The translations under genes were made by a program, and so were the position numbers. A stretch of DNA of 64,000 nt from Alicyclobacillus sendaiensis NBRC 100866 (GTDB taxonomy: Bacteria > Bacillota > Bacilli > Alicyclobacillales > Alicyclobacillaceae), in the NCBI RefSeq assembly GCF_001552675.1, contig NZ_BCRQ01000002.1, positions 1-64,000 of the forward strand, given 5' to 3'. This document shows, one piece after another, positions 10,492 to 17,729 of this stretch. The notes below the pieces were generated by a model. It saw only the letters and a list, made by a program, of their open reading frames with translations, searched no databases and was not told where the DNA came from. Each line of letters opens with the position of its first letter. Positions within the stretch are counted from its first letter, which is position 1.

Positions 10492-10752
10492 GTGGATGTG
10501 TTAAAAGTCTCCGCAAAATCGAATCCCAATTCGGTCGCCGGCGCCCTGGCGGGAGTCGTGCGAGAGCAAGGTTCGGCAGAAATTCAGGCGATTGGAGCGG
10601 GGGCGCTCAACCAGGCCGTGAAGGCTGTCGCGATCGCGCGAGGGTTTGTCGCGCCGAGCGGCATCGACCTGATCTGTGTGCCAGCGTTCACAGACATTAA
10701 AATTGATGGCGAGGACCGAACTGCCATTCGCCTGCTCGTGGAGCCTCGCTGA
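10492..10752 (+). CDS. spoVS: Stage V sporulation protein S
   Basis: The product has exactly 86 residues, the usual SpoVS length, and shows the family sequence from the start (MDVLKVSAKSNPNSVAGAL) through GAGALNQAVKA and IKIDGEDRTA. SpoVS is a small Alba-like nucleic-acid-binding protein needed for normal progress through spore cortex and coat stages. GTG 10492 is preceded by GAGGAGG about 10 bases upstream. The 5' region has a TATAGT at about 10450-10455 that could be a -10 element, without a clear -35. Regulation is not resolved from sequence. Confidence 0.95.
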   Translation: MDVLKVSAKSNPNSVAGALAGVVREQGSAEIQAIGAGALNQAVKAVAIARGFVAPSGIDLICVPAFTDIKIDGEDRTAIRLLVEPR

Positions 10753-10767
10753 GAAAGGATGAGATCG

Positions 10768-11724
10768 GTGGCGCGAATGCTTGTGGCCGACGCGCATGTC
10801 GATGTCTTGATGAAGTTGGCGGAGGGCCGCGTGGCTTTTCTGGAGGACTCGCCCGACCTGCGGGCGAACTACTATTCGCTGCGCGAGGGCGGTGTCGCCA
10901 CACAGGTGTTCGCGCTGTACGTCGATCCGTCCCTGGATTCCTACACCCAGTTGGCCGTGGTCCTGCGGCAGATCGACGCGTTCTACCAACAGATTGCCGT
11001 GCTGGCCGATGTGCGGGCGGTGCGTTCGAGAGAGGATTTGCGCGTCGCCCGCCAGCAGGGACAGATGGCGGCCATCCTGTCGCTTGAAGGTGGCGGCTGT
11101 CTCCGCGGCAGCGTCGAGATCCTGCGCATCCTGTATCGCCTCGGCGTTCGGGGCGTGGGCTTGACGTGGAACGACGCCAACGAACTGGCCGACGGCTGCG
11201 GAGAGTTGCGGGGAGCAGGACTCACCCGCGCCGGCCGCGACGTGCTGAGAGAAATGCAGCATTTGTCGATGTGGATCGATCTCGCCCATCTGCACGACGC
11301 TGGCGTGCGCGACGTGCTTCGGCTCACGGACGGGCCCGTGATGGCCTCTCACGCCAATGCTCGAGCCGTTCATCCGCACCGCAGGAACCTGACCGACGAC
11401 GTCATCCGCGAGATCATCCGCCGAGACGGTTGGATGGGTCTCACGTTTCAGCCGTCGTTCGTCGGGCGGGATCCCGTCAGCATCGACGACGTGTTTCGCC
11501 ACTTGGATCACGTCCTCGATCTCGGCGGGCATCGCCACGTCGGGTTTGGCTCAGATTTCGACGGCACGTCCGCGGACATTCCCGGCCTCGCTGCGAGCAG
11601 GGACTACCGCGCATTCGCGGAACGGCTCTGCGACCGATACGGCCAAGACCTCGCGCAGGCCTTCCTCTTTGGCAACTTCGAAGCCTTTCTCATGCGACAG
11701 TTGCCGTCCACGTCGCCGCTGTGA
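10768..11724 (+). CDS. Membrane dipeptidase (renal dipeptidase family, M19)
   Basis: This zinc dipeptidase family cleaves dipeptides, including D-amino-acid-containing ones, and some members act on beta-lactams. The 318-residue product has the metal-binding HVD near the N-terminus (ADAHVD), the bridging acidic residue in ILSLEGGG, the paired His region SHANARAVHPHRRN, and GFGSDFDG near the C-terminus. No signal peptide is evident, so it is probably cytoplasmic. GTG 10768 has AAAGGA 8 bases upstream; ATG 10759 overlaps that site and ATG 10777 is also possible. It lies 15 bases after spoVS, so co-transcription is likely, an arrangement also found in other Bacillales. Confidence 0.9.
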   Translation: MARMLVADAHVDVLMKLAEGRVAFLEDSPDLRANYYSLREGGVATQVFALYVDPSLDSYTQLAVVLRQIDAFYQQIAVLADVRAVRSREDLRVARQQGQMAAILSLEGGGCLRGSVEILRILYRLGVRGVGLTWNDANELADGCGELRGAGLTRAGRDVLREMQHLSMWIDLAHLHDAGVRDVLRLTDGPVMASHANARAVHPHRRNLTDDVIREIIRRDGWMGLTFQPSFVGRDPVSIDDVFRHLDHVLDLGGHRHVGFGSDFDGTSADIPGLAASRDYRAFAERLCDRYGQDLAQAFLFGNFEAFLMRQLPSTSPL

Positions 11725-11747: not shown

Positions 11748-11870
11748 CCGCGCTTGCCTTCGCCTCGTTCGACCCTCCTTCACGTCCTTCCTCCCCGTGA
11801 CCGGTTCGGTGGGCCATGGCCCAATTTTCCCCCGGCCCTTCCCCACGCGGCGCACCTCCGTTCGCCCATG

Positions 11871-11878
11871 CATACGAT
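11871..11878 (+). promoter_or_regulatory. Possible sporulation-sigma -10 element upstream of cotE
   Basis: CATACGAT resembles the -10 hexamer region of sigma-E and sigma-K promoters (CATA with a downstream T). It lies about 122 bases before cotE, in the 276-base gap that otherwise holds only the hairpin near 11727. No convincing -35 was found. B. subtilis cotE is read from sigma-E and sigma-K promoters, which makes the match plausible. Confidence 0.25.
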
Positions 11879-12000
11879 GTGCTGTGAGCGCGACTGGGCA
11901 GAAGCCGCCGGGCGACACGCCCGATGGGCTCCATGCCTCGCAAACGGTTCGATTCCTGCGAGCGCAGGTCCGCTCGATTCTGCACAGAGGAGGTAGCCGC

Positions 12001-12537
12001 ATGGTGCTGTCCAGCAAAGACCTCAGCTACCGGGAAATCATGGCGAATGCCGTGTGTGGCCGCGGCAACAAGTACACGCAGACCACGTATACGGTTCGCC
12101 CGGCCCATCGCCCGAGCACGATCGGAGGCTGCTGGGTGATGAACCACGTGTACGAGGCGGAGCTGGTAGGCGACTACGTCGAGGTCCGGGGCCGATTTGA
12201 CATCAATGTATGGTACTCGTACAACGGCAACACGGACACGGCGATCGCCAAGGAGACCGTCACGTACACGGAACAAATTGCCCTGCGGGACATCGACGAC
12301 GCCTGTGTGCGCGACAGCCGGGAGGTGCGCGTGCACGTGATCCAGAGCCCGAATTGCCTCGACGCAACGCTGACAGGCAACGGCTCCGAGGTCTTGGTGC
12401 GCGTCGAAAAGGAACTCGGGGTGGAGGTCATCGGTCAGACCAAGTTGTGCGTCGTTACGGTCGATCTCGCGGACAAGAAGGACATCGACTTCTTCGAGGA
12501 GGAGAGCCAGGTCGAGGAAGTCGAGATCGAAGACTGA
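12001..12537 (+). CDS. cotE: Outer spore coat morphogenetic protein CotE
   Basis: CotE builds the layer on which the outer spore coat assembles. The 178-residue length matches B. subtilis CotE (181). Recognisable segments include the N-terminal REIMANAVCGRG oligomerisation region, HRPSTIGGCWVMNH, and DINVWYSYNGNTDT. The C-terminus is strongly acidic (FFEEESQVEEVEIED), as in the family. AGAGGAGG precedes ATG 12001 by 7 bases. In Bacillus cotE lies between ymcA and mutS; here it has moved ahead of miaB and leads a set of ATP-grasp and amidoligase genes. Confidence 0.96.
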   Translation: MVLSSKDLSYREIMANAVCGRGNKYTQTTYTVRPAHRPSTIGGCWVMNHVYEAELVGDYVEVRGRFDINVWYSYNGNTDTAIAKETVTYTEQIALRDIDDACVRDSREVRVHVIQSPNCLDATLTGNGSEVLVRVEKELGVEVIGQTKLCVVTVDLADKKDIDFFEEESQVEEVEIED

Positions 12538-12553
12538 AGCCCAAGGCGCGTCG

Positions 12554-12573
12554 GAGGGGGCAGTCGCCCCCTC
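12554..12573 (+). terminator. Hairpin between cotE and the first ATP-grasp gene
   Basis: A perfect 8-base stem GAGGGGGC/GCCCCCTC with an AGTC loop lies 16 bases after the cotE stop. The tail CGCTTTGTG is only partly T-rich. It could terminate or attenuate, setting a higher dose of CotE than of the downstream enzymes. Confidence 0.45.
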
Positions 12574-12599
12574 GCTTTGTGCCCGGAGGAGGTGGCCGC

Positions 12600-13688
12600 A
12601 TGGGAGATGATGTCGGGCGCACGCACCTCGCCGTGTACGTGGACGGACCGTATCCCGGGCCACGGAAGTTCGGCGAACAGACGCGGCTGTTTGAAGACCT
12701 CTCCCTGCTCGGGCGCGACACGGGCGTCGATGTGCAGGTGCTGACGCCGGGTGATCTGTCGACAGGGCGCGCGCACGTGTTCACGGGCACCGCGTGGGAG
12801 ACGGCGCCGCGGGCCGCGATGGACGTGGTGTTGCGCCGCTCCGGCGTCTTCCACCGCCACCCCGCGGTCGCCGCCCGGGAACTCGTCGCGCTCCGCTGCC
12901 AAGGCCTTCTACATACACTCCCTCGACAAAGCGGGCATAAATGGAAGCTGTATGCCTGGCTGCGCGGCGATGCGCGGTTGCGCCCCCACCTTCCGCGCAC
13001 GTGGCTGTGCGCTCGCATCGAGGATCTGATGGCGCTTCTCGCGAGCCAGGACGATCTGTACGTCAAGCCGCTCAACGGGACGCAAGGCCACGGCATTTAT
13101 CGCGTTCGGCGCCGAGCAGGGAAGATTGAGCTTTTGCCCGCGGCTGGCGGAGGATTGATCTCGGTGGCGACGCCATCGGAGCTTCAGCGCGCCTGGCCCG
13201 CCGATGCCTGGGTGCCCGCCGTGGCTCAGACCACCATCTCGCTTGCCCGCGTGGGAAACAGGCCGTTTGATTTGCGCTGGCTCGTCTGCGACGGCGACTG
13301 CCCGCAGATCATCGCCCGGGTCGCGCGGCTTGCCAAGCCCCGCGCGGTGACCACCAACATTCACACGGGCAGCGAGCCGCGCGCCGCCGAGATGGCCCTC
13401 GTGGAGGCGTTTGGCGCGCAAACGGCGGGCGATCTCGTCAATCAGCTGGACGATATTGCCGTAGCCGTGGCACAGCTCGCGCGGGACAAGTTTGGGCCGT
13501 ACGCCGAATTGGGCCTGGATCTCGCCGTGAGCGACGACGGCCGAACCTATTTCATCGAGCTCAACCCCACGCCCGGCCGGCGGATGTTGCGCCGGTTGGA
13601 CCCAAAGGTGCATCGTCTGTCACTCCAAGCGCTGCTGGAATATGCTATCCAAGTTCGACAGCGGCGCGGGGGATACGCGCGGGGGTGA
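12600..13688 (+). CDS. YheC/YheD-family ATP-grasp protein, spore-coat-associated (first copy)
   Basis: The 362-residue product belongs to the YheC/YheD endospore coat-associated ATP-grasp family. It shows the ATP-binding strand and glycine loop YVKPLNGTQGHGIYRV near residue 160, the FDLRWLVCDGD strand near 225, and the metal-binding end of the fold, YFIELNPTPGRRML, near 315. ATP-grasp enzymes join a carboxylate to an amine or thiol through an acyl phosphate; the substrate of this branch is unknown. GGAGGAGG lies 7 bases before ATG 12600. Its stop overlaps the GTG of the next ATP-grasp gene. In B. subtilis, YheC and YheD are spore-coat proteins. Confidence 0.85.
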   Translation: MGDDVGRTHLAVYVDGPYPGPRKFGEQTRLFEDLSLLGRDTGVDVQVLTPGDLSTGRAHVFTGTAWETAPRAAMDVVLRRSGVFHRHPAVAARELVALRCQGLLHTLPRQSGHKWKLYAWLRGDARLRPHLPRTWLCARIEDLMALLASQDDLYVKPLNGTQGHGIYRVRRRAGKIELLPAAGGGLISVATPSELQRAWPADAWVPAVAQTTISLARVGNRPFDLRWLVCDGDCPQIIARVARLAKPRAVTTNIHTGSEPRAAEMALVEAFGAQTAGDLVNQLDDIAVAVAQLARDKFGPYAELGLDLAVSDDGRTYFIELNPTPGRRMLRRLDPKVHRLSLQALLEYAIQVRQRRGGYARG

Positions 13689-14806
13689 GGAAGATGGTTC
13701 AGCGGCCGCTCATCGGCATTCTCGACTCCCCGCGATGGGACGAACGCCATCAGACCCTCAGGGAGACCGATCAAATGGCGGGCATCCGGCGCATGGTCGA
13801 GATCGCACAGTCGCTCGGTGCCGAGGCGTTCGTGTTTGGTCTGCAGGACGTCGACCTCAAGTCCAAGCAGATCCGCGGGTTTTCGCGCCTGGACGACCGA
13901 TGGGTCGCGCGCGTCTATCCATTTCCGGACGTGATTTACGATCAACTCGTCTCTCGCAAGGTCGAGCGAAACCAGGCGTATCGGTCGATCCGGCAGGCGC
14001 TTTCGGCCGCGTACGGCGAGAGGTTCTTCAACGATGGCTTCTTCGACAAGTGGCAGATCTACGAGTGGCTGCGCCGTTCGCCGGTGCGACCGCACGTCCC
14101 AGAGACCATTCGCCACAGGTCGTTGGCCCAAGCCACGGCCTTCGTCGCTCGCCATCCCGTCACCTTTCTGAAGCCCCTTCACGGGAGCCTCGGCCTGGGC
14201 ATTGTGCGCTTTGCCCTCGATAAGGACGGGTCCGTGTCGTACGAGTGGAAACGATCGCGCGACGGGGTCGTCCACGGCACCGCCGCCTCACCCGCCGAGG
14301 CCGTGCAGTTGTTCCGCACGCAATTGCGAAGGCGGCCGTATATTTGGCAGCAGGGTATCGATCTCGTCGCGTTGGACGGTCGGCCCGTCGATGTCCGCAT
14401 CCTGCTCCAGCGCGACGGGACCGGCGCTTGGAAGCGCACGAAGATGTTTGCTCGGGTCGCGAGGTCCGGCGACTTCACGTCCAATCTCGCGGCGGGCGGC
14501 GGCGCCATGCCTGTCGACCGGGCGATTCTCGGCGCCTTTCCCGAGGGCGCGAAGAAGCGCGTGCGCGCGTCCATCCGCAGGCTTGCGGAGGCCGTGGCGG
14601 AAGCGGTGGAAACGGGCGCGGGCCGCACCTTCGGAGAACTCGGCATCGATCTCGGCGTCGACCGACGCGGTTTCGTGTGGGTCATTGAGGTGAATTCCAA
14701 GCCGCGCAAAGCACCTGCGTCGGCGAGCGGACGCGACGACCTGGTCGAACTCTCGTTCAGGCGGCCGATGGAATACGCGCTGTTCCTCGCGCGACGATCG
14801 TCGTGA
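13685..14806 (+). CDS. YheC/YheD-family ATP-grasp protein (second copy)
   Basis: This 373-residue protein has all ATP-grasp landmarks: TFLKPLHGSLGLGIVRF around residue 160, VDVRILLQRDG near 236, and GIDLGVDRRGFVWVIEVNSKPR near 320, so it should bind ATP and magnesium. The N-terminal 100 residues (PLIGILDSPRWDERH ... ARVYPFPDVIYDQL) are the usual YheC/D pre-domain. GTG 13685 overlaps the previous stop (GTGA); ATG 13694 is an alternative. Tight overlap with the neighbours implies coordinated synthesis with the amidoligase gene downstream. Confidence 0.85.
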   Translation: MRKMVQRPLIGILDSPRWDERHQTLRETDQMAGIRRMVEIAQSLGAEAFVFGLQDVDLKSKQIRGFSRLDDRWVARVYPFPDVIYDQLVSRKVERNQAYRSIRQALSAAYGERFFNDGFFDKWQIYEWLRRSPVRPHVPETIRHRSLAQATAFVARHPVTFLKPLHGSLGLGIVRFALDKDGSVSYEWKRSRDGVVHGTAASPAEAVQLFRTQLRRRPYIWQQGIDLVALDGRPVDVRILLQRDGTGAWKRTKMFARVARSGDFTSNLAAGGGAMPVDRAILGAFPEGAKKRVRASIRRLAEAVAEAVETGAGRTFGELGIDLGVDRRGFVWVIEVNSKPRKAPASASGRDDLVELSFRRPMEYALFLARRSS

Positions 14807-14834
14807 GCCCGCGCCGAACCAGGGGGGAGAGCAG

Positions 14835-16295
14835 ATGGCGTACTACCTTTTATTTAAAAACCAGCCCTCGGCAAGACGGCTCATGGCAAGCGTGCCTCGC
14901 CTCTCCAGGTACACAGCGAGCAATCGAATGACGGATCGCGACGTCTTGGTTCGATGGGGAATGGTGAACGAGAGCGATCCGGCCCGTGGGACGGTGCTCA
15001 ATGCAAGCGAAGCGCAGCGGCGGATCGCGTCGCGCGCGCAGATGGCGAAATTTCTGCGGCGAGTGGGCGTGCGCGTGGCGCCGCGCGTCAATCGCGACGG
15101 GCTTCCTACGACGTTCAGCCGCCAGTACCGCATTCCGATATTCGACTTCGTGCCGATCGGCTGTTTTCGCTCCGACTCGGCCGTCGACTGGACTTCCTCC
15201 CGCATTTCGCGGATCCACGATTCGTTCGAGGAGGTGCCGTTTGATAGCGACGGGCAAACCCGCCGCGCCACGTACCTCGCGACGCGAACCCTGCACGCGC
15301 TGGGACTCGACTTCGGCCTTGTCTCCATCGGGGTGTCCGAACGAGGATTCCTGCAGGTCCTGGACGTCAGCGCCGCGCCCATCTTGGAGGGGCGCCTGCT
15401 GGAGCTGTACCGGGAGGCCGTTCAGCGCTTCGTCGAGCGGGAGGAGGCGTGGCAACGCAAGGGTCCTCCCGACGTCACGCTTGGCGCCGACGTCGAGATC
15501 ATGTTGCGAAACGCCCAGGGAAAGATGGTGCTCGCGAGCAAGTACTTTCCTCGCAAAGGGCGCATCGGCTGCGACGATCGCAGTGTCCAATTCGACGGCC
15601 GGCGGCTGCCCTTGATGGAACTTCGGCCGGCGCCGGACGCCTCGCCCGACGGCCTCGTCGGCCATTTGCGCGCACTGATGGAGGAGGCGAGCGAGACCAT
15701 CAACCGGCCCGGCGTCGAGTGGAGGGCCGGGAGCGCGCCGTTTCGGCCGTACTGCACGGGAGGCCACATTCACATCTCCGGGGTGCCGCTTTGCGCGCGG
15801 CTGGTCAGGGCGCTCGATCACTACGTCGGTTTGCCGCTCATGGCCGTCGAGGATCCCGTGCGCGCCAAGTGGCGTCGGCCCAAGTACGGATTCTTAGGCG
15901 ACGTGCGCCAGAAGTCGCACGGCGGATTCGAGTACCGGACGCCCGCGAGCTTCGTGTGCAGCCAGGCGGCCACGCGCGCCGCGTTTCACCTGGCACATCT
16001 CGTCGCTCGCCACTATCGCGATCTCCCGCTGTACGACATCTACTCGCCGCAACTTCAGTTCGCGTTTTACCAAGCGGACCGCGAGACGCTGCAGCCCATC
16101 CTGCTGCGGAACATCGACGCCATCCGCGCGCATCCCGAGTATGCGCACCATCGAGATGCCATCGAGCCTTTGTTTGCGATGATCGAACGCGGGGAGACCT
16201 GGGACGAAACAGTGGACGTTCGTCAGGAGTGGGGCGTGCCCCTGCGGCGCGCGCAGGGGCCAAGGCGGGCGAAGGTCCTCGCCGCTCGCAGCTAG
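14835..16295 (+). CDS. Degenerate ATP-grasp-like region fused to a COOH-NH2 ligase (GCS-like amidoligase)
   Basis: The 486-residue product has two parts. Residues 1-205 look like a decayed YheC/D ATP-grasp: LGLDFGLVSIGVSERGFLQVLDVSAAP lines up with the final strand of the neighbours, but the metal-binding Glu and Asn are replaced. Residues 215-430 match the phage phiEco32-like COOH-NH2 ligase type 2 group of the glutamylcysteine-synthetase superfamily: LGADVEIML around 220, GGHIHIS around 309-315, and the Arg-rich RRPKYGFLGDVRQKSHGGFEYRTPASF region. That group was described from genome context as linked to CotE and YheC/D genes and proposed to act in coat or wall modification. Substrate is unknown. 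The start ATG follows a GGGGGGAG site. Confidence 0.8.
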   Translation: MAYYLLFKNQPSARRLMASVPRLSRYTASNRMTDRDVLVRWGMVNESDPARGTVLNASEAQRRIASRAQMAKFLRRVGVRVAPRVNRDGLPTTFSRQYRIPIFDFVPIGCFRSDSAVDWTSSRISRIHDSFEEVPFDSDGQTRRATYLATRTLHALGLDFGLVSIGVSERGFLQVLDVSAAPILEGRLLELYREAVQRFVEREEAWQRKGPPDVTLGADVEIMLRNAQGKMVLASKYFPRKGRIGCDDRSVQFDGRRLPLMELRPAPDASPDGLVGHLRALMEEASETINRPGVEWRAGSAPFRPYCTGGHIHISGVPLCARLVRALDHYVGLPLMAVEDPVRAKWRRPKYGFLGDVRQKSHGGFEYRTPASFVCSQAATRAAFHLAHLVARHYRDLPLYDIYSPQLQFAFYQADRETLQPILLRNIDAIRAHPEYAHHRDAIEPLFAMIERGETWDETVDVRQEWGVPLRRAQGPRRAKVLAARS

Positions 16296-16325
16296 TAAAC
16301 GGCACGGTCGCGCGAGGTGTGGACG

Positions 16326-17447
16326 ATGAATGAACCCTTTCACGGAAGTGTCCCGGACGAACGGGCGGAAGACATCGTGTGGAAACACGACGGGCCTGCG
16401 TTCGCGATTCTCACCGCCGAACACCCCTCCGGCTTCGCGGGCTCCAGGCGGTATTTTCGGGATATCATCGCCGCTGGGCAAAAGCGAGGATGCCTCGTCT
16501 ACATCGTGACGCCGCCATCCGTATCGGAGGGCGTTTGGTGGCAGGGGTATGTGCGGTTGGGCTACCGCAATTGGAGGCGGATGTGGCTGCCTCGCCCGCT
16601 CGCGGTTTACAACCGCATCCCGAACAGGGCGCTTGAGGCGAGCGCTGCCGTTCAACGCGCACGGGCGACGCTCCAAGCCATGGGGATCCCGTTCTTCAAC
16701 CACCGCTACTTTAACAAGGCGAAGATCTACGAGGCCATTCGGAGCGCGGGGCTCGGCCATCATCTGCCGGAGACGCAGGTCTTCGAGGGTACGGGATCGG
16801 TCGTGGATCTGCTGAGCCGTCATGAGGCGGTCTATCTCAAGCCGGTGGGCGGCAGCATCGGCCGGGGCATCGTGCGGGTCGAGCGCCGGGGCACGTCGTT
16901 CGACGTTTGGACGCAGCGCAGCACGCGGGCAGAGCATTGGGCGATTCACGACCTGCGGGAGTTGGACGAAGCGCTGCGCCGGGCGCGCCTCCCCGGCGTC
17001 TACGTGGCGCAAGCGGCCGTACCCGTCATTCGGTTCGAGGGACGGCCGTGCGACGCGCGCGTGCTCCTGCAGCGCCCAGGGGCGCACTGGAAGGTGGTGG
17101 GATACGGGATTCGCGTCAGCGGCGCTGAAAGCATCACGAGCCACGTTCCGAACGGAGGACGGATTGCGGACCGGTGGGTGGTCCTGCGTCACGCGTTCGG
17201 TTCCCGCAGCGAGGAGGTGGACGCTCGGCTCATCTCGTTCGCCCAGTCCGCGGCGGCTGCGATTGAACGGTCGATGCCCGGGCACGTGCGAGAGATGTCC
17301 ATCGACGTCGGACTCGACGAGGCCGGACATCCCTGGTTCTTTGAGGCGAACGCGAAGCCCATGCGGTTTGACGAGCCGGACATCGCGCGGCGCGCGAGCG
17401 CAGGCGTGATCGAGATCTTGCGCGATCTCGCCAACGTCTCTCGCTAG
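16326..17447 (+). CDS. YheC/YheD-family ATP-grasp protein (third copy)
   Basis: The 373-residue product again has an intact ATP-grasp pattern: VYLKPVGGSIGRGIVRV near residue 170, CDARVLLQRPG near 240, and MSIDVGLDEAGHPWFFEANAKPMR near 330. The last motif reads EAN instead of the EVN or ELN of its siblings, a small change at a metal-binding position. ATG 16326 has GAGGTG 6 bases upstream; GTG 16317 is possible. It begins 30 bases after the amidoligase and ends the island. Its stop codon shares the bases CTAG with the stop of the opposing small gene. Confidence 0.83.
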   Translation: MNEPFHGSVPDERAEDIVWKHDGPAFAILTAEHPSGFAGSRRYFRDIIAAGQKRGCLVYIVTPPSVSEGVWWQGYVRLGYRNWRRMWLPRPLAVYNRIPNRALEASAAVQRARATLQAMGIPFFNHRYFNKAKIYEAIRSAGLGHHLPETQVFEGTGSVVDLLSRHEAVYLKPVGGSIGRGIVRVERRGTSFDVWTQRSTRAEHWAIHDLRELDEALRRARLPGVYVAQAAVPVIRFEGRPCDARVLLQRPGAHWKVVGYGIRVSGAESITSHVPNGGRIADRWVVLRHAFGSRSEEVDARLISFAQSAAAAIERSMPGHVREMSIDVGLDEAGHPWFFEANAKPMRFDEPDIARRASAGVIEILRDLANVSR

Positions 17448-17692
17448 ACAAGCGGCCACGGCAGCAGAAAGCGTTGCTTGCCCTTCGTCACATACTGGAT
17501 CTGGTGCAGGGGAATGTAATGCCATTTGCTATCGTACACCAGCAGAGCTCGATGGGATTGAAGAATCTCGTCGATCTCCGGAAAGTCGCTGGCGTACGAT
17601 TTTTTATTGGGCGAGACCACGGCCCCGTCCAGCGGCTCCTCGCGAAAGGCGACGTGCACCTCAAACGTAGGAATGTTCACTTTCTCCGACAT
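17444..17692 (-). CDS. Small conserved-looking protein of unknown function, 82 aa
   Basis: This is an 82-residue soluble protein with no family I recognise. It opens MSEKVNIPTFEVHVAF and is rich in aromatic and charged residues (KWHYIPLHQIQYV). A GAGGA Shine-Dalgarno sits 7 bases before the ATG, and a promoter is visible upstream on the same strand, so it looks real. Its stop overlaps the stop of the convergent ATP-grasp gene by four bases. It is transcribed against the surrounding genes, so it is probably regulated separately. Confidence 0.65.
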   Translation of the reverse strand: MSEKVNIPTFEVHVAFREEPLDGAVVSPNKKSYASDFPEIDEILQSHRALLVYDSKWHYIPLHQIQYVTKGKQRFLLPWPLV

Positions 17693-17729
17693 GATGAAGT
17701 CCTCACCACGTTTATACGCTTTACTGCTT

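Follow-up and report, generated by a model that had tools for sequence, protein, structure and literature searches.

Why should the gene for a spore coat scaffold protein be followed directly by four genes for predicted amide-bond-forming enzymes? The question is raised by a 64,000-nucleotide stretch of Alicyclobacillus sendaiensis NBRC 100866 (contig NZ_BCRQ01000002.1, positions 1 to 64,000; hereafter the window), in which cotE is succeeded by three ATP-grasp ligase genes of the YheC/YheD type (YheC/D ligases 1-3) and a gene for a GCS-like COOH-NH2 ligase (the amidoligase). We consider it on balance probable that these genes encode a coat-associated amide-ligase set of the mother cell, whose members work one after another on a coat protein or acidic peptide. 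The association with the spore coat is well supported, by the linkage to cotE, by strict co-occurrence with it, by promoter elements of a mother-cell type, and by the known coat protein YheD; the predicted amide-bond chemistry is supported by folds and motifs, those of the ATP-grasp enzymes being RimK/LysX/GshB-like and those of the amidoligase YbdK/GCS/PafA-Dop-like.

The genes were read directly from the sequence and then identified by Pfam profile searches. All are transcribed rightwards (forward strand), in the order cotE, ligase 1, ligase 2, amidoligase, ligase 3. The cotE gene (12001..12537) encodes a 178-residue outer spore coat scaffold protein (PF10628, E = 6.9e-60; 202 bits against a cut-off of 25) and is under purifying selection, with a ratio of nonsynonymous to synonymous substitution rates (dN/dS) of 0.018 in comparison with two close species. 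It is followed by ligase 1 (12600..13688; 362 residues; PF14398, E = 1.7e-47), ligase 2 (13685..14806; 373 residues; E = 1.8e-75), the amidoligase gene (14835-16295; PF14395, E = 2.2e-105; 352 bits against a cut-off of 25) and ligase 3 (16326..17447, with an alternative GTG start at 16317; 373 residues; E = 4.7e-58). The three ATP-grasp ligases score 162, 254 and 197 bits respectively, and all pass the curated PF14398 cut-off of 26.8. The successive intergenic gaps are 62, -4, 28 and 30 nt, ligases 1 and 2 overlapping by 4 nt. With such decisive profile scores, the co-directional and tightly spaced arrangement described in a sequence-only reading of this DNA is borne out.

The set is widely distributed. 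When the lists of PF14395, CotE and YheC/D matches were compared across a sample of 300 Bacilli genomes, PF14395 was found in 159, CotE in 208 and YheC/D in 201; every one of the 159 PF14395-positive genomes also has both CotE and YheC/D, and PF14395 is present in none of the 92 genomes that lack CotE. The median number of YheC/D genes is at least eight in PF14395-positive genomes and one in those with CotE and no PF14395, although P values for this comparison are descriptive only because the sampled genomes are related. Sampling of 60 genome regions and 80 named loci places cotE, with few exceptions, directly 5' of the amidoligase gene, of yheC/D genes, or of both, and this linkage spans the Bacilli and a few other Firmicutes. 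Two forms of gene order recur: miaB-ymcA-cotE-amidoligase-mutS in most lineages, and cotE-yheC/D-yheC/D-amidoligase-yheC/D(-yheC/D) in the Alicyclobacillaceae, Sulfoacidibacillus-like genomes, Kyrpidia and Tumebacillus. Within Alicyclobacillus, where a check of synteny had been suggested, PF14395 is present in all 15 genomes and gene order is conserved; the named loci whose amidoligase comes nearest, at 88-89% identity, belong to A. mali and A. fructus. The term 'island' used in the sequence-only reading is thus an overstatement: the cotE-amidoligase pair is conserved in about half of the sampled Bacilli, and its presence throughout the genus and broadly in the class rules out a horizontally acquired island. 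The ligase set is instead ancient and widespread. A phage origin was also considered and rejected, there being just one distant phage match, limited to the ligase domain. Three loci from Thermincola and a Firmicutes metagenome-assembled genome (L154, L169 and L177) have cotE in two tandem copies, after which come four YheC/D genes and an amidoligase gene, in contrast to a 2012 survey in which CotE was reported to be absent from clostridia (PMC3533761).

Our literature search returned no paper connecting a COOH-NH2 ligase to cotE. Iyer et al. in 2009 and the Pfam notes reportedly describe a cotE/yheC-yheD/PF14395 neighbourhood of Firmicutes and propose a role in coat or wall modification; the three families, their linkage and the general proposal are the same as here, and the linkage was therefore already recognised, as the sequence-only reading had said. 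New here are the two-domain structure of the amidoligase, its fused forms, the three ATP-grasp orthologue lines, the co-occurrence counts, and the conservation of promoter and terminator elements around cotE.

Sequences upstream of cotE resemble sigma-K and sigma-E promoters. In the window a candidate element of this kind is located at 11853..11879 (forward strand), with AC, a spacing of 15 nt, and CATACGAT. The motif GCATA[C/G]GATG occurs once per locus in 19 Alicyclobacillaceae loci and at no other site in 1.06 Mb on both strands; in the 17 loci with a fixed cotE start it lies 120-205 nt upstream of the gene, and in most of these AC is found ~15-17 nt before CATA. Comparable CAC...GCATA sites are seen ahead of cotE in Paenibacillus and elsewhere. 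Many relatives have another site, of the GCATACTGATG type, closer to cotE; in the window it is degraded. A scan for sigma-70 promoters upstream of cotE found nothing. The B. subtilis cotE gene has one sigma-K and one sigma-E promoter (PMC517825).

Between cotE and the ligases is an intrinsic-terminator-like hairpin (12554..12579, forward strand) with an 8-bp G+C stem, an AGTC loop and a short T tract. Such hairpins are found right after cotE in 36 of 45 loci, with 2.3 expected from shuffled sequences, and are near background in the gaps after the other genes of the block. The window's own hairpin has a strong stem and a weak T tract and folds no better than shuffles, so the case for a terminator rests on the comparison among loci. 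Given this conserved terminator the block, although co-directional as had been noted, probably does not form a single simple operon. The gap ahead of ligase 1 could hardly accommodate a further promoter, and the ligases are therefore probably made by read-through past the cotE terminator.

The three YheC/D proteins are not recent duplicates of one another. In a protein tree ligases 1, 2 and 3 fall into three family-wide clades (support 0.999, 0.995 and 1.0), each of which keeps the same gene position, and they accordingly represent old, separate orthologue lines. Their conserved ends differ, with EvNPTPGRrMLR in ligase 1 and EAN.KPMkFDEP in ligase 3. Alignment shows that the lid lysine, glycine loop, aspartate and Glu-x-Asn end are conserved in every clade, in agreement with the lysine strand, glycine loop and acid-Asn end picked out earlier in all three copies. 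Sequence searches among solved structures gave only partial matches for YheC/D. An AlphaFold2 model of ligase 2 (predicted local distance difference test, pLDDT, 92.9) is closest in fold to RimK, ArgX, LysX and GshB, which are tied at Z 22-23 over 260-278 residues (RimK 5zct: Z 23.0, 278 aligned, root-mean-square deviation 2.7). The ATP-grasp motifs are shared with RimK and LysX/ArgX, but identity is only ~17-21% and neither a LysW-like carrier nor an S6-like substrate was identified. The genome encodes one PF14395 protein and four YheC/D proteins, three of them in the block and one on another contig (21316-22023 of contig C17). This fourth gene lies outside the three orthologue lines and adjoins metabolic genes and not known coat genes.

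The amidoligase has two domains, the first of which had not been recognised in the sequence-only reading. Pfam covers residues 216-468 only and finds no match in the N-terminal domain, and searches for solved relatives by sequence gave none, with a single chance-level match (E = 0.07). A model of the whole protein, built by AlphaFold2 with 42 sequences, is confident (pLDDT 92; predicted template-modelling score, pTM, 0.91), and its parts were compared with known folds by VIA-align. Residues 211-467 match YbdK (1tt4, Z 17.4), plant GCL (15.7), Dop (15.4) and PafA (15.0), and the C-terminal domain (residues 211-486; 15465..16295, forward strand) has the invariant motifs GxDxE, ExRP, GGHxHxS, RRxxYGxxGDxR and GxEYR of a GCS-like COOH-NH2 ligase. 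Residues 1-204 match RimK (5zk6, Z 16.2, 190 aligned, target of 291 residues) and other ATP-grasp proteins. This N-terminal domain (residues ~1-208; 14835..15458, forward strand) has the element order of a pre-ATP-grasp part followed by a C-terminal subdomain; between helix 67-76 and strand 96-103 there are ~20 residues, where the lid of ligase 2 occupies ~85, and the Glu-x-Asn end is not kept in the alignment. The lid with conserved lysine and glycine loop by which an active ATP-grasp is recognised is lacking, and since the model leaves no room for it the domain would be anatomically unable to bind ATP. It is nevertheless strongly conserved: dN/dS against the two closest species is ~0.05 for the N-terminal and ~0.08 for the catalytic domain, values that are approximate (dS near 1) and whose order does not hold against more distant species. 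An origin as a plain YheC/D relic was set aside, profile support being weak (hhalign E 2.8e-5, probability 74).

The extra lid-less ATP-grasp domain distinguishes the amidoligase from PafA/Dop, GCS and YbdK, which otherwise match its C-terminal domain in fold and motifs; no Pup-like gene was identified, although the genome was not searched for Pup. The bifunctional GshF, also a fold match (3ln7), combines GCS-like and ATP-grasp domains in one chain as well, but in the reverse order, and the ATP-grasp part of the amidoligase has no lid. Two sampled loci have a further PF14395 protein, a chain of 870-880 residues that ends in a YheC/D (PF14398) ATP-grasp (L086, 9047-11689; L094, 9146-11764); similarly long frames are present in G088 and G105. 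The first domain of the two fused proteins has the C-terminal ATP-grasp part in common (hhalign probability 94), and looks like another ATP-grasp remnant.

How might such enzymes serve the coat? We propose that four ATP-dependent amide ligases are produced in the mother cell together with CotE, and that the terminator after cotE would allow the scaffold to be made in excess over the enzymes. The YheC/D enzymes, in the manner of RimK or LysX/ArgX, would phosphorylate the carboxylate at which a coat protein or acidic peptide ends and attach a small amine or an amino acid there, with a separate step for each of the three. The amidoligase, in GCS/PafA style, would phosphorylate another carboxylate – by analogy that of a side chain – and join an amine to it, so that the same material would gain a branch, a cap or a cross-link. 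The ATP-grasp domain without a lid would be noncatalytic and serve to bind the shared substrate or else an active partner of the YheC/D type. The acidic tail of CotE, which ends EEVEIED in the window, is one candidate substrate. The sequence-only reading, in which short peptides or amino acids are ligated onto coat or wall material, is thus well supported for the coat association and supported, as far as sequence and models can predict it, for amide-bond formation, while for the ligation target itself we infer rather than observe.

Several lines of background are consistent with this proposal. Ligases of these kinds, where linked, frequently carry out ligations one after the other (PMC4431377). 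B. subtilis YheD, a member of the same Pfam family, is a coat protein that surrounds the forespore as a shell and has strong self-interaction (PMC7911427), and yheC and yheD belong to the sigma-E/SpoIIID regulon (PMC517825). B. subtilis differs in that yheCD (BSU0977-0978) are apart from cotE (BSU1703) and PF14395 is missing, as had been anticipated; used as a search control, it matches the CotE and YheC/D profiles and not PF14395. Since this model organism has no amidoligase, the chemistry of that enzyme would have escaped standard studies of the coat. Galperin et al. list A. acidocaldarius and K. tusciae as without SpoVID and SafA (PMC3533761), and a SpoVID model has no match over its cut-off in the 15 Alicyclobacillus genomes. 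The coat of this group is therefore constructed in another way; this lends plausibility to an enlarged ligase set, though it proves nothing.

Other observations weigh against the proposal. Across the CotE tree, presence or absence of the amidoligase switches only about three times, so the co-occurrence counts are not independent. Most genomes also have YheC/D genes situated away from cotE, and these proteins need not all serve the same product. The YheC/D family is not essential in B. subtilis, since a yheD deletion strain exists. The GCS-like fold also resembles that of the hydrolytic Dop, and the amidoligase could therefore remove a tag rather than add one.

Of the alternatives, the one that survives best, though we consider it somewhat unlikely, is that the enzymes synthesise a spore metabolite or wall-linked peptide, in the form of a small non-ribosomal peptide or a gamma-linked polymer, for deposition in the coat, CotE being a neighbour only through shared timing. 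Linked ATP-grasp and COOH-NH2 ligases elsewhere make storage peptides, teichuronopeptides and peptide metabolites (PMC4431377), and the M19 membrane-dipeptidase gene directly upstream in Alicyclobacillaceae would fit a small-peptide product. Yet the adjacency to cotE outlasts both the loss or gain of yheC/D and the movement of cotE relative to miaB-ymcA-mutS, and no transporter, carrier or precursor-peptide gene is seen in the block, although small open reading frames were not systematically tested.

A special case of the series-acting coat ligase set, and an unlikely one, is that CotE itself is the substrate, its acidic C-terminal tail being extended or linked by the ligases. There are parallels in RimK, which extends ribosomal S6, in LysX/ArgX, which loads LysW, and in PafA, which uses Pup, and the nearest folds to ligase 2 include enzymes acting on acidic protein C-termini. 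CotE ends are conserved in PF14395-positive Bacilli (IDDLD, LDDDLN, EEVEIED, DFED), and in one sample the last residue is D in 42 of 54 of these and in 2 of 20 PF14395-negative proteins, 10 of which end in E; many of the PF14395-negative relatives share the upstream DLxPD stretch but end in GEEE or differ. However, CotE has an acidic tail even where the amidoligase is absent, some PF14395-positive lineages have CotE ending in L or A, some PF14395-negative tails (FLDDEHEH) look alike, and with so few independent losses of the amidoligase the difference may be only lineage history. Given the roughly three label changes and exceptions on both sides, the tail pattern is a lead and not a test. Its fuller version, a coat protein-tagging system in about half of Bacilli in which RimK/LysX-like ATP-grasps and a PafA-like amidoligase act on the CotE tail, is distinctly doubtful; it suggests that the lid-less domain would be a docking domain and the product an amide-linked extension or cross-link. 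A mainly structural role, in which YheC/D and the amidoligase descend from enzymes but have become coat proteins that ligate little or not at all, fits the YheD shell, its self-interaction and the lost ATP lid, but is very unlikely since a purely structural role would not preserve the catalytic motifs found in the three ATP-grasp clades and the GCS-like domain.

The amidoligase is present in about half of the sampled Bacilli genomes, always together with CotE and YheC/D, and no known product was found for it. If coat material is indeed modified by the ligase set, a step has gone unrecognised in the assembly of a shell that ranks among the most resistant in biology; the fused forms, the lid-less domain and the clues from the CotE tail open the idea to direct testing. 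Spores of Alicyclobacillus also cause spoilage problems in fruit juice.

To the left of cotE are spoVS and the M19 dipeptidase gene (10492-11724), identified by direct reading and Pfam; they have the same position in most Alicyclobacillaceae loci, and a link between the dipeptidase and the ligases is possible. Further upstream are recA, recX and rny, named by sequence and synteny. To the right, a small convergent open reading frame of ~83 residues (17444-17695, reverse strand) abuts the end of ligase 3 and is followed by miaB, ymcA, mutS and mutL. It has no clear family, and frames of like size are present at the same spot in several relatives.

The cotE gene is itself interrupted near its 3' end in A. 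suci (L104, 4093-6970), A. fastidiosus (L105, 1941-6965) and two further loci (L042, 2521-5950; L046, 968-5950; both oriented with the amidoligase on the forward strand). The break follows GQT[K/N]LC codons, and the cotE tail TKLCVLTAELVEKKDED... resumes 2.9-5.0 kb further on. For the L104/L051 and L105/L045 pairs, joining at a short shared core restores a CotE frame of 179 or 178 residues. Every one of these elements has a serine recombinase frame, matching over nearly the whole length, and the genes between cotE and the ligases in A. suci and A. fastidiosus, considered as candidate substrates, proved to be a recombinase element. It looks like an element of the sigK-skin type; excision would restore cotE, and until then the ligase genes would be cut off from the cotE promoter. 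Recombinase elements are known in sigK, gerE and spsM (PMC5595907, PMC4191935); a literature search found none in cotE, although this does not establish novelty. Aneurinibacillus-type genomes have the cotE break at another codon, after YNNNTD, with a shared AACAACACAGA in L173 (5253-9817). This form is present in five genomes of the sample (G062, C1:2908159-2919603; also G075, G100, G110 and G184), in two of them across contigs. The elements are 4-17 kb long, and the two that were read carry a methyl-accepting chemotaxis protein and a different serine recombinase (~26% identical); the splitting of cotE in the two groups is independent.

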